The position numbers and the translations under genes are program-made. From assembly GCA_017480785.1 (NCBI GenBank), contig JAFURZ010000004.1, positions 1 through 64,000 on the forward strand: a stretch of DNA of 64,000 bases, in the 5' to 3' direction. Below the pieces are notes generated by a model. The model did not search any database. It was not told the origin of the DNA and saw only the letters and a list, made by a program, of their open reading frames with translations. Shown here piece after piece: positions 18,601 through 39,510 of this stretch. This DNA is from Bacteroidales bacterium. Its GTDB lineage: Bacteria > Bacteroidota > Bacteroidia > Bacteroidales > P3. Every line of letters begins with the position of its first letter. Positions within the stretch are counted from its first letter, which is position 1.

Positions 18601-19427
18601 AATCCAGTGAAATTGAGTGATACGGGGCCGGTGAGCCAAACGTCCTCATAGGCCCGTCCGGTGGCCGTGAAGTCGACACGGAAGTCGCCTCCCCGGGTGA
18701 CGAGGCGGTGGTTGCCGCTGACGATGGCGCAAGCGGTCACACCCGTGCCACAGGCCCAGGTCTCGTCCTCGACGCCACGCTCATAGGTGCGTACAGCCAG
18801 TCGTCCGTCGGGCAGGTCCTCGATGAAATCTATGTTGGCCCCTTCGGGGAAAAGGTCGGTACGGTTGCGCAGACGGCGCCCCTCTCCCACCACGTCGTAG
18901 CGAGGCAGGTCGGTCACCCGCTGCACATAGTGGGGCGAACCCGTGTCGAGGAACCATCCGTCGGCCACACGCCTGACGTCGTCGGACGCCACACTCCTCA
19001 TGCCGAGGCGGACCAGTCCGAGGCGGCCGTCCCACGTCAGGATGTCGGCCTCGTGAGGACCGTCGTAGCCTTTGAAGCGCAGCTTGTTACCCATGCCGAG
19101 CAGGTGGGCGAAAGCGGCAATGCAACGGCCGCCGTTGCCGCACATCGACCCCAGCCGGCCGTCGCTGTTGTAGTAGTGCATCTCGAAGTCGACATAAGTG
19201 GGTAGTGGGTAGTGGGTAGTGGGTAGCACTTGACCACGACTGCTATCCACTACACACTCCCCACTATCCACTTTTTCCAGTGTCATCAGCCCATCGGCAC
19301 CCACGCCGAAGCGGCGATGGCAGAGGCGGGCTATCTCGGCCTCCTCCAGACGGTACATTCCCTTGCGGTTGTCGACCACCACGAAGTCGTTGCCTGCCCC
19401 GTCGAACTTATAGAACGGTATTTCCAA
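18579..19427 (-). CDS. dapF: diaminopimelate epimerase
   Basis: 282 residues. Converts LL-DAP to meso-DAP for lysine and peptidoglycan. Both catalytic Cys regions are present (SMCGNGGRC and ACGTGVTAC). The only usable start is TTG at 19427, since an in-frame TAA lies three codons upstream and the first residues ([20 protein letters not shown]) match the family from the beginning. About 25 extra residues ([16 protein letters not shown] and PTTHYPLPT) sit between [12 protein letters not shown] and [11 protein letters not shown], encoded by a palindromic insertion at 19198-19272. It follows dnaX by 28 bases and overlaps ligA. Confidence 0.96.
19198..19272 (-). repeat. heptad palindrome (AGTGGGT)n in dapF
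   Basis: Four GTGGGTA-type units face CTATCCACTAC-type inverse units. The central loop contains TTGACCACGA, the inverse of TCGTGGTCAA in the uvrC copy. In the coding direction it encodes [16 protein letters not shown]. Confidence 0.88.
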
Positions 19428-19455
19428 ATTATATTACTCTTATTGTTGTCAATAC

Positions 19456-20046
19456 TCAATAGTCTATCTGGGGGAAGAGCTTGCGCAATTCCACCAGCTT
19501 CGGGTTGACCTGCAGCATGGCCTTGTATTTGTCCTGCGGCGAATAGGCCACCTCGTCTTTTTCAATATAAAGGGGGTTCACCTTGCAGTCGAGCAAGGGC
19601 ATGCCGCTCTTCTTGCGCAGCGATTCCATCACGTCGATGCGGTGGGGCTTGAAGTCGTCGAAGAAGTAGGTCGATTGGGCGTCGATTTCAATCCGTCCAT
19701 GCTCTCCCACCCGTGGTTTGCCTTTCTCCATCAGGTTTTGGAGCTGTAGCTCGTCGGCCGTCTGCTGCCAGTACAGGTTCAGTTCCTCCTGCGTCAGCGG
19801 CTTGACTTCGGCCTGCAGTGCCGGCGCTTCCACCTTGACCTGTGGCAGGTGGGCAATGCTGATGCTGCCGGCGAGACCGGGGAGCGCGGTGGGCTTCGCC
19901 TCCGCCCCTTCTCCTGTCTGAAGAGGTGCGGTAGGTGATGGAGCGGATGGCTCCGCTCGCTCCATACTGTCGCGTTCGGCTCTCTCCGCTTTCTGCTCTC
20001 CGTTTTCAACGGTATCCGTGCCTGCCCTTTCGGGACTTCTTGCTAT
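19456..20046 (-). CDS. DnaX tau-specific C-terminal region, after an in-frame TAG
   Basis: After the TAG at 20047-20049 the same frame stays open for 196 codons. It starts IARSPERAGTD, runs through a Pro/Glu/Ala-rich linker and ends in a helical domain (LTQEELNLYWQQTADEL...LRKLFPQIDY) typical of the C-terminus of Bacteroidota DnaX (tau). The first internal Met is at 19965, within the linker. Without readthrough or an internal start this part would not be made. I treat it as part of dnaX. It could be a separate short protein from ATG 19965, a readthrough product, or a dead remnant. Confidence 0.7.
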   Translation of the reverse strand: MARSPERAGTDTVENGEQKAERAERDSMERAEPSAPSPTAPLQTGEGAEAKPTALPGLAGSISIAHLPQVKVEAPALQAEVKPLTQEELNLYWQQTADELQLQNLMEKGKPRVGEHGRIEIDAQSTYFFDDFKPHRIDVMESLRKKSGMPLLDCKVNPLYIEKDEVAYSPQDKYKAMLQVNPKLVELRKLFPQIDY

Positions 20047-37086: not shown

Positions 37087-37596
37087 ATGCACAGACACAC
37101 ACATATCCTCTTCACCGCACTGGCAGCGCTGTTGCTGCTGGGCGCCTGCGGCAAGAACACCATCGCCGAGGAGGAGCACCTGCTGGCCGGCGACCAATGG
37201 AACCGCTTCACCCCCGAGCACTTCGACATCGCCGTGGGCAACATCGAGAACTACTACAACATCGACCTCACGGCCGCCATCGACACGTCACGTTTCCGCT
37301 ACAGCGAACTGCCCGTGATGCTCATCCTCAAGTCGCCCGGCGGCGAAGAACGCCAGTTCTACGGAGCCATAGTCTTCAAAGGCAAGTCGGAGGATGCCGG
37401 GCATCCCGTCCGCTGGCGGGGCGAGATGGTCGACGGCTACCGCGTGGCCACCGGCCGCATACGCAGCTACTTCAGCTTCAACCACAAAGGGGTACACACC
37501 CTCGACGTCAGCCAGGCCACCAGCCAGTACGACCTCGAAGGGGTGCACAGCATAGCGCTCACCGTCAGCAAAGCCAAAGTGGACTACGACTTCTAG
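37087..37596 (+). CDS. GldH-like gliding-motility lipoprotein
   Basis: 169 residues. Lipoprotein signal with lipobox LLGAC. The rest is a beta-rich domain with W(N)RFTPEHFDIAVGNIENYYNI, a central PVMLILKSPGGEE and the ending YDLEGVHSIALTVSK, the pattern of the GldH family, which sits with T9SS and gliding genes in many Bacteroidota. The family match is by pattern and is moderate. It lies between asd and uvrC. Confidence 0.6.
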   Translation: MHRHTHILFTALAALLLLGACGKNTIAEEEHLLAGDQWNRFTPEHFDIAVGNIENYYNIDLTAAIDTSRFRYSELPVMLILKSPGGEERQFYGAIVFKGKSEDAGHPVRWRGEMVDGYRVATGRIRSYFSFNHKGVHTLDVSQATSQYDLEGVHSIALTVSKAKVDYDF

Positions 37597-37602
37597 CCTA
37601 TC

Positions 37603-39510
37603 GTGATTGACGCCGGCATCAACCCCAACATCGACCGCATCGCCCTGCGGCTGAAGACCATCCCCGAGAGCCCGGGGGTCTACCAGCACCTCGATGCCGA
37701 CGGCAAGGTCATCTATGTGGGCAAGGCGCGCAACTTGCAGCGCCGCGTGAGCAGCTACTTCACCCACTACGAAGACAAGAGCCCCAAGATAAAGATGCTC
37801 GTCCGCTCGGTGTGCGACATACGCGTCACCGTCGTGGCCACCGAAATCGACGCCCTGCTGCTGGAGAACAGCCTCATCAAGCGCTACCAGCCGCGCTACA
37901 ACTCCATGCTCAAGGACGACAAGACCTACCCCTACCTCTGCATCACCGACGAACCTTACCCACGCCTCCTCTACACCCGCCGCAAGACCCTCAAGGGGCA
38001 GTACTTCGGGCCCTACCCCAACGGGCGCATCCTGCGCGAACTGCAGGACATCATACGCCAGCTCTTCCAGTACCGCACCTGCGACAGAACAGTGGGTAGT
38101 GGACAGTGGGTAGTGGGTAGCACTCGTGGTCAAACGCTACCCACTACCAACTACCCACTACCCACTGTCAGACCCTGCATGAAGCACCAGATAGGCCTCT
38201 GCGGCGCCCCCTGCGCCGGCCTGCAGAGCCAGGCCGACTACCAGGCCACCATCGAGAACATACGCCGCATCCTCAAAGGCGACTTCGGCGACCTGCTCGA
38301 CGACCTCAAGCGGCAGATGTATGCCGCCGCCGCCGACCTGCGCTTCGAGGAGGCCGAAGTGCTCAAGCGCAAGCTGCACCTCCTCGAGGAGTACCAGAGC
38401 CGCTCCACCGTGGTCGACACCAAGGTGGCCGACGTCGACGTCATCAGCATCCTCGGCGACGACCAAAGCGCCACGGGCACCACAGCCTATGCCTGGGTCA
38501 ACTACATGCGCTGCAAGCACGGCGCCATCATCTACAGCATCAGCAACGAGGTGAAGAAACAGCTCGACGAGAGCGACGCCGAACTGCTGGCCACCATCAT
38601 CCCCACCCTCCACGAGCAGAGCCACAGCACCGCCCGGGAAATCATCCTCCCCTTTGCCGTGCCCGACCTGCCCGACGGCTACCTGCAGCAGAACACCAAT
38701 CCCCGCGGCGACCGGCGCAAGCTGCTCGAGCTTTCGCTCCGCAACGTGGAGAGCTTCCGCAAGCAGTGCCTCCACCAGAAAGCCCTCCTCAGCGGCGAAC
38801 ACGCCTCCGAAAGCGGCGAGCGCCTGCTGGCCCGCCTCCAGAAAGCCCTTGCCTTGCCCTCGCTGCCCATGGAGATAGAGTGCTTCGACAACTCGAACAT
38901 ACAGGGTGCCTACCCCGTGGCCGGCATGGTGCGCTTCAGCGGCGGCAAGCCCAACCGCAAGGAATACCGCAAGTTCAACATCAAGACCGTCGAAGGCCCC
39001 GACGACTACGCCTCCATGGCCGAAGTCATCGGGCGCCGCTACAGCAAGCTGGAGCAGCTGCCCGACCTGCTGCTGGTCGACGGCGGCGAGGGACAGATGG
39101 AGATGGCACGGCGCGTGCTGCGCGACGAGCTGCACTGCCCGCTGCCCATCGCAGGACTGGCCAAGAACGACAACCACCGCACCGACCGCCTGCTGGCCTA
39201 CGACGCCGACTACCACATACGCACCGTGCAGATCAAACCCACCGACCCCCTCTTCCACTTGCTGGAACGCATACAGGACGAGGTGCACCGCTTCGCCATC
39301 ACCTTCCACAAGGACAAGCGCTCGAAGGGCACCTTCCGCACCTCGCTGACCGACATCGACGGCATCGGCGAGAAGACGGCCCACGACCTGCTGCTGCGCT
39401 TCGGAAGCGTCAAGCAGGTGCAGCTGCAGACCCTCGCCGACCTGACCGACGCCATAGGCCCCGCCAAAGCCCGGCTGGTGTACGATGCCCTACACGGCGA
39501 GCACGACTAA
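37603..39510 (+). CDS. uvrC: excinuclease ABC subunit C
   Basis: 635 residues. Makes both incisions in nucleotide excision repair. GIY-YIG nuclease (PESPGVYQHLDADGKVIYVG), UVR domain (LRFEEAEVLKRKLHLLEEY), RNase H-like 5' nuclease (CFDNSNIQGAYPVAGMVRF) and C-terminal helix-hairpin-helix (DIDGIGEKTAHDLLLRFGS). The start is GTG at 37603, as the family N-terminus begins here. An insertion of about 25 residues (GSGQWVVGSTRGQTL, PTTNYPLPT) lies between YRTCD and CMKHQIGLCGAPC, encoded by a palindrome (38089-38168) homologous to that in dapF. Confidence 0.95.
   Translation: MIDAGINPNIDRIALRLKTIPESPGVYQHLDADGKVIYVGKARNLQRRVSSYFTHYEDKSPKIKMLVRSVCDIRVTVVATEIDALLLENSLIKRYQPRYNSMLKDDKTYPYLCITDEPYPRLLYTRRKTLKGQYFGPYPNGRILRELQDIIRQLFQYRTCDRTVGSGQWVVGSTRGQTLPTTNYPLPTVRPCMKHQIGLCGAPCAGLQSQADYQATIENIRRILKGDFGDLLDDLKRQMYAAAADLRFEEAEVLKRKLHLLEEYQSRSTVVDTKVADVDVISILGDDQSATGTTAYAWVNYMRCKHGAIIYSISNEVKKQLDESDAELLATIIPTLHEQSHSTAREIILPFAVPDLPDGYLQQNTNPRGDRRKLLELSLRNVESFRKQCLHQKALLSGEHASESGERLLARLQKALALPSLPMEIECFDNSNIQGAYPVAGMVRFSGGKPNRKEYRKFNIKTVEGPDDYASMAEVIGRRYSKLEQLPDLLLVDGGEGQMEMARRVLRDELHCPLPIAGLAKNDNHRTDRLLAYDADYHIRTVQIKPTDPLFHLLERIQDEVHRFAITFHKDKRSKGTFRTSLTDIDGIGEKTAHDLLLRFGSVKQVQLQTLADLTDAIGPAKARLVYDALHGEHD
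38089..38168 (+). repeat. heptad palindrome (AGTGGGT)n in uvrC
   Basis: ACAGTGGGTAGTGG-type units face CCACTACCCACTGT. The centre AGCACTCGTGGTCAAACGCT shares CGTGGTCAA with the dapF copy. Read as GSTRGQTLPTTNYPLPT. Confidence 0.9.

Follow-up and report, generated by a model that had tools for sequence, protein, structure and literature searches.

Rickettsia palindromic elements (RPE) are described as short, translatable palindromes that lie in-frame in many unrelated, often conserved genes and that also occur between genes (PMC2229807; PMC10969869), and their length is given as 105-146 bp (PMC2229807) or about 150 bp (PMC10969869). A comparable case, the Wolbachia palindromic repeats, is named in the title of a reference in PMC3733652. 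Intragenic repetitive extragenic palindromes (REP) of the GTAG- and CGTC-tagged types are reported to encode often 20-30 residues, free-living bacteria included, and to lie in uvrA, uvrB, UvrD/REP helicase genes and the genes for tRNA synthetases and tRNA pseudouridine synthases; their stems are given as 5-13 bp with a tag, and REPs of the GTAG type are linked to transposase genes (PMC3733652). Heptamer direct repeats have been reported as well, of the TAACTGA type in Beggiatoaceae, Cyanobacteria and some Bacteroidetes and of the GGGNATC type in Xanthomonas and Nostoc (PMC4679880; PMC4692102). Here we describe a 76-nt palindromic repeat element that lies inside the dapF and uvrC genes of a Bacteroidales bacterium (assembly GCA_017480785.1), within the 64,000 nucleotides of contig JAFURZ010000004.1 that were analysed (the window), and inside many other genes of the same genome. 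Very probably, these inserts all derive from a single palindromic repeat, mobile and non-autonomous, that belongs to a ruminant-gut genus of Bacteroidales.

The element resembles the RPE in being a dispersed palindrome that sits in-frame in unrelated genes and has one translatable frame (57 of the 59 copies spanned by an open frame, with 42 host sites). Going by the published descriptions, the two are set apart by length, build and carrier, the element being 76 nt long, made of heptads and found in Bacteroidales, as opposed to 105-150 bp and Rickettsia. With the intragenic REPs, as described, it shares the location of palindromes inside genes, overlapping types of host and peptides of similar size; however, its arms are 34-nt heptad arrays where the reported REP stems measure 5-13 bp, and GTAG occurs here within the repeated heptads and not as a single terminal tag. 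Like the heptamer direct repeats it consists of dispersed 7-nt tandem units with a patchy distribution, whereas those repeats are described mainly as intergenic direct arrays and not as palindromes with a conserved core. Among the matches listed from open-licence papers, neither this element nor heptad palindromes in Bacteroidales coding genes were described in the titles and opening lines of abstracts. The element appears to represent a new, heptad-armed family of the coding-gene palindromes for which Rickettsia and the intragenic REPs provide the known examples. Rickettsia is the best-known source of protein-coding palindromes, the intragenic REPs being a wider case, and the present one is a compact, recently active family from gut bacteria. 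Its approximately 25 copies, shared and unshared sites, stop-bearing copies for comparison and sequenced congeners open the way to testing how old insertions are, how targets are chosen and how well proteins tolerate them.

Architecture of the element and its copies in dapF and uvrC

The palindrome consists of two 34-nt arms flanking an 8-nt loop, the left arm being built of four AGTGGGT-like heptads and the right arm of four ACCCACT-like heptads. In coding orientation the majority sequence is approximately AGTGGGT-AGTGGGG-AGTGTGT-AGTGGAT-AGCACT-CGGGGTCA-AGTGCT-(ACCCACT)4. The two window copies and their host genes are located as follows:

18579..19427, minus strand, host gene dapF, diaminopimelate epimerase (PF01678; Pfam)
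19197..19272, minus strand, 76-nt palindromic element in dapF, an in-frame insert of about 25 residues
37603..39510, plus strand, host gene uvrC, with GIY-YIG, UVR and RNase H domains (Pfam)
38091..38166, plus strand, 76-nt palindromic element in uvrC, read as VGSGQWVVGSTRGQTLPTTNYPLPT

Both copies were found where a preliminary description of the window had placed one and the same palindromic insertion. They are 88% identical (E = 6e-22 in the whole-genome search), agree in orientation and phase with respect to the coding sequence, as had been claimed, and carry the loop or core CGTGGTCA; furthermore, the window contains exactly two occurrences of CGTGGTCAA, both of them in these copies. Searching the window for AGTGGGTAGTGGGT with at most 3 mismatches gave 16 matches, 13 of them inside the two inserts; the expectation from shuffled sequence was 5.4, and none of 100 shuffles reached 16. 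The extra peptide common to both proteins was also recovered, but its length had been put at 16 residues and the 76-nt element encodes about 25, a stretch that recurs in nearly the same form in the other host proteins of this genome. In its protein context the uvrC insert reads YRTCDR-TVGSGQWVVGSTRGQTLPTTNYPLPT-VRPCMKH. When folded as RNA, the two window copies gave strong predicted hairpins, with energies of -43.3 and -50.5 kcal/mol and z-scores of -5.3 and -7.5. The core is not part of the heptad repeat and is common to copies and genomes, with C41 in 52 and A42 in 54 of the 57 copies that use the common frame (see below). Its variation is greatest at third codon positions (0.51 vs 0.24 and 0.41), and that of the arms is about equal across the three positions.

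Copy number and host genes

When the uvrC copy was searched by blastn against this genome (2,250,901 bases in 19 contigs; completeness 92%), 88 matches were obtained on the two strands; 40 of 43 candidates were scored and 39 places were read. About 25 copies were present in the 2.25-Mb genome (L001-L025, full or near-full palindromes), and an open reading frame (ORF) spans the element in 22 of the 25 loci, the exceptions being L017, L024 and L025. Pfam domains were present in all 20 of the host proteins submitted (of 22; L022 and L023 were left out). The hosts comprise DAP epimerase, UvrC, an amidohydrolase, Ham1, a UvrD helicase, an IPP transferase, a RadA-like AAA protein, an anaerobic ribonucleotide reductase, a FAD-binding NadB-like protein, a MgsA-type AAA protein, a GH2 beta-galactosidase, a PNGase-F-like protein, an alpha-2-macroglobulin, UvrA, three class-I tRNA synthetases, a radical SAM protein, a TrmB-like methyltransferase and a TruA-like tRNA pseudouridine synthase, the finer names (TruA, MiaA, TrmB, NadB, RadA) being our own assignment beyond Pfam. 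Many of these are housekeeping genes. In the IPP transferase gene (L009) the element falls at the N-terminal end, and the position of the true start is uncertain there.

Mean identity was 80% across 21 copies of this genome, and copies in unrelated genes reached 98.7% (L010 and L013) and 96% (L006 and L011). The preliminary description had argued from two copies for one dispersed element instead of local slippage and had proposed a search of the genome for more; the number of copies, their identity across unrelated genes and the congener sites that lack the element (see below) all bear this out.

Reading frame of the copies

A profile search of the loci collected yielded 81 distinct copies, of which 76 were analysed after dropping three from a Methylococcaceae genome (L129) and two partial matches (L154 and L155). 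A frame spans 59 of the 76, and 17 are unspanned. One and the same frame of six is read in 57 of the 59 spanned copies, and the two exceptions are rearranged (L023, whose core differs and whose left arm is shifted, and L051, with a left-arm deletion). The preferred orientation and phase proposed for the window copies hold in this larger set, and they arise because the other readings contain stop codons. In the 57 common-frame copies element positions 14-16 are GAG (34), CAG (22) or GGG (1) and never a stop, vs TAG (15), TAA (1) or GAA (1) in the unspanned copies, a stop in 16 of 17; a single base, the mirror of a perfect arm, separates the spanned from the unspanned class. Base frequencies at positions 19 and 27 likewise differ between the classes (p = 0.006 and 0.0015, uncorrected), which fits a derivation of the genic copies from stop-free parents. 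In addition, the net insertion length is a multiple of three in 57 of 57 common-frame copies, partly by definition; these copies represent 42 host sites and are not independent. In this genome spanned copies outnumber the others 22 to 3, above the expectation from a one-in-six frame filter, an excess that could come from faster decay of the other copies or from the use of a coding-type query.

Insertion sites and effect on the host proteins

Host-protein matches were obtained in congeners for DapF (37 of 40 genomes), UvrC (37 of 40) and TruA (36 of 40), and 29 loci were aligned for each. The insert peptide was absent from all 29 aligned congener sequences of each protein (0 of 87 proteins), so that in these alignments it is not ancestral, as the preliminary description had required. 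All three tested sites are variable loops. At the uvrC site, 4 nt stand in place of the 76 in 18 of 23 congener loci with both flanks aligned, and at the dapF site 10 nt do so in 11 of 21 congener loci. Since 76 is not divisible by three, any insertion that survived must also have altered bases of its flanks. Among the loci collected, 10 of the 42 host sites are common to two or three genomes and 32 occur in one genome only, so old and recent insertions coexist; identity is 80-96% within the 12 pairs of copies that different genomes carry at a common site. Half elements in this genome (L036 and L037) correspond to complete copies at the same site elsewhere (L130; L141 and L166), and judging from these sequences it is likely that copies can decay by losing one arm.

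The junctions of spanned copies are A/T-rich over 6-8 nt on either side, third codon positions included; moving away from the element, the right-hand third positions have 74, 51, 26 and 11% A+T, in a window of 60% G+C.

In an AlphaFold2 model of DapF (25 sequences; mean pLDDT, the predicted local distance difference test score, 90.5) the insert comprises residues 53-77, of which residues 61-75 have a pLDDT below 50. Most of it is predicted to be a disordered loop between strands 46-51 and 81-87, a position that bears on the structural check proposed for DapF in the preliminary description. The UvrC insert separates the GIY-YIG domain from the UVR motif and has the Cys of YRTC on one side and that of RPC on the other, Cys residues that bind a cluster in other UvrC proteins. 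Users should be warned that annotated proteins of these genomes carry non-ancestral loops.

Distribution among genomes

Matches with E <= 1e-8 were found in 11 of 61 genomes, namely this genome, 10 of 36 congeners and none of 24 from other genera, so that the relatives do hold further copies. The congeners with many copies include G018, G024, G022 and G002. In a sample of 294 genomes from the order Bacteroidales that belong to other genera, an exact pattern gave no match. With a stricter pattern and one genome per species (84,980 species), 45 stretches were obtained: 43 from 15 Bacteroidales/Bacteroidetes metagenome-assembled genomes (MAGs), one from a Methylococcaceae genome and one from a Gammaproteobacteria MAG. 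Six of the 15 carrier MAGs match members of the genus, and the genus of the other 9 is inferred from DNA similarity. The occurrence in 15 differently named MAGs counts against an assembly artefact. Their titles mention goat, sheep and red deer, and RUG in the MAG names is taken by us to mean rumen; the carrier bacterium is probably an inhabitant of the ruminant gut.

The Methylococcaceae outlier is a 1145-residue ORF, methyltransferase-like by our assignment (L129:2518-5955), which contains three 76-nt AGTGGAT palindromes with architecture and frame as in Bacteroidales and with different cores. All 9 element matches of that genome lie on the contig that carries this ORF. These copies may reflect transfer or convergence, both of which fit. 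The same ORF also holds a second repeat-like peptide, RHAREGGHPEGQNLDSRVRGND, which recurs elsewhere.

Origin and mobilisation of the element

Taking the inserts as copies of one mobile palindromic repeat builds on established features: dispersal, restriction to a lineage, congener sites without the element, the frame rule, the potential to form hairpins and the location in variable loops. Such an element would copy itself into new places, possibly through a hairpin-forming DNA or RNA intermediate, and genic insertions would be retained when the frame is stop-free and the net length a multiple of three. The insert would be translated as part of the host protein, as the open frame suggests, and, given that the insertions tested sit in variable loops, the host would tolerate about 25 extra, probably disordered residues. 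To our knowledge, there is no settled account of how the Rickettsia elements move. The element is most likely selfish or neutral DNA.

Several results weigh against mobility of this kind. No mobilising enzyme was found in the searches of Y1 regions and of the genus. Y1_Tnp (PF01797) had a match in 28 of 41 genomes of the genus. Three Y1 transposase genes are present in this genome (G000); no complete element occurs in the 5.5-6.2 kb inspected at each, which also distinguishes the family from GTAG-type REPs, and one of the three has a single-armed array of AGTGGGT type at a distance of 1.7 kb. In a congener with 15 element matches (G018) no Y1 transposase was detected, at 81% completeness. Y1 transposases are poor candidates for the mobiliser. 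The clean empty sites and target duplications that the preliminary description had raised did not appear either: some bases always occupy the dapF and uvrC sites in congeners, commonly the 4 or 10 nt given above, and the flanks of 61 spanned copies (the odd L023, L051, L154 and L155 included) showed no excess of target-site duplications or inverted flanks over permuted flanks, a difference from miniature inverted-repeat transposable elements. Hairpin energies did not differ between spanned and unspanned copies (medians -40.7 vs -42.7 kcal/mol, p = 0.96), and the third-position excess in the core is a mild sign of selection on the peptide. Furthermore, the unspanned copies are not all clear of genes, as 15 of 17 overlap the end of some ORF of at least 80 residues, and the lack of stops in the host frame of spanned copies follows from the definition of 'spanned'; what goes beyond definition is the use of one of six frames in 57 of 59 copies and the one base that splits the classes.

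Two further ideas found no support. Mobilisation by REP-associated tyrosine transposases (RAYT) was not supported, the inverted repeats near the three Y1 genes of this genome belonging to other families and G018 having no detected Y1 match, and weaker hairpins in spanned copies were not borne out by the folding energies.

Palindromes could instead arise in place by local slippage from heptad microsatellites, which abound in this genus, foldback copying making the second arm. Period 7 is the commonest tandem class in the 433 kb of window and congener loci (50 arrays; period 11, 24), although it ties with period 11 inside the window and is absent from 10 Y1 loci; its unit sequences are species-specific, single-arm arrays lie inside genes, and in the RarA/MgsA-like gene a duplicated half element adjoins the complete one (L002:769-895). 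Slippage is nevertheless quite unlikely in view of the non-repeat core and of the identity of up to 98.7% between copies in unrelated genes. Moreover, the window and 87 congener loci yielded only 8 stringent palindromes, of which 2 have period 7 or 14, one of these being the uvrC copy; a shared core among other heptad palindromes was sought in the same sequences, where these 8 form a small sample.

We find it very improbable that selection has put the peptide into many proteins as a useful module, for instance a binding tag or a regulatory loop. The same peptide does occur in many information-processing enzymes, ten sites are kept across genomes and core variation peaks at third codon positions, but the hosts are functionally mixed (beta-galactosidase, PNGase-F-like protein and alpha-2-macroglobulin among them), the loop is predicted to be disordered in DapF, 32 of the 42 sites occur in one genome only and the arms vary about equally at the three codon positions. 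Were the insert removed or skipped at the RNA level (intron-like or by translational bypass), leaving the proteins normal, there would be no need for an open frame or for a net length divisible by three; yet both occur in 57 of 57 copies (partly by definition), and the 20 submitted host genes are recognisable by Pfam. Even with a stable mRNA hairpin and hosts that are usually essential enzymes in its favour, such removal or skipping appears extremely improbable.

Other repeat arrays in the window and in congeners

Four further heptad arrays lie in genes of the window, the gene names being our own assignments:

17358..17403, minus strand, degenerate heptad palindrome in a DNA-ligase-like (LigA-like) gene
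29865..29972, plus strand, different palindromic heptad array of GGAAAGT/GGAGAAC units in an MltG-like gene, EWRTESGKWKVESGERRTENGERVSTLSTFHFPLST
36579..36615, plus strand, GGAGAGT/GGAGAGC heptad array in an aspartate-semialdehyde-dehydrogenase-like (Asd-like) gene, EESGEWRAESGER
41392..41420, minus strand, AATTGAA heptad array in a membrane-protein (ThrE-like) gene, FQFSIFNFQF

Comparison by eye of 24 aligned loci (L219-L242) showed that congeners have other sequences or arrays at the MltG-like site: where this genome has the GGAAAGT-type palindrome, G022 has a decayed AGTGGGT-type copy, G018 palindromes with the GGAGTTCAA unit and G001 palindromes with a GGAGTGAAA-like unit. Similarly, by eye, the TruA loop of four congeners contains AATTAGG, AGTGTTT, AGTGATG or CCCCTCTCC/GGAGAGGGG arrays instead of the element. 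The plain reading is that these sites are tolerant loops hit repeatedly. A rather unlikely but broader possibility is a genus-wide, active and sequence-agnostic process that writes and rewrites short-unit arrays (7, 8, 9 or 11 nt), often palindromic and with species-specific units, in a limited set of protein loops; if so, the AGTGGGT element would be only the current version of this species, and the MltG and TruA sites would owe their different arrays to rewriting on the spot instead of fresh invasion by unrelated elements.

Long palindromes built of an 11-nt unit (ACGGTAGTATT) and closely resembling one another occur at 15273-15383 and 30416-30522 of the window and at L211:330-440. Another 11-nt unit, TAAAAGAACAG, is found at 39557-39578 and 49411-49441 of the window and as a palindrome at L210:3745-3783, approximately 1 kb from a Y1 transposase gene, and a REP-like inverted repeat, CCGTGGGC...GCCCACGG, lies directly downstream of a Y1 transposase gene at L211:2946-3061. 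Lastly, the CCCCTCTCC/GGAGAGGGG repeat occurs at 15849-15923, 16451-16554 and 28977-29055 of the window and also in the UvrA gene (L013), and LTPGPSPNGEG or a close variant, encoded by this repeat, appears four times in the UvrA of this genome.

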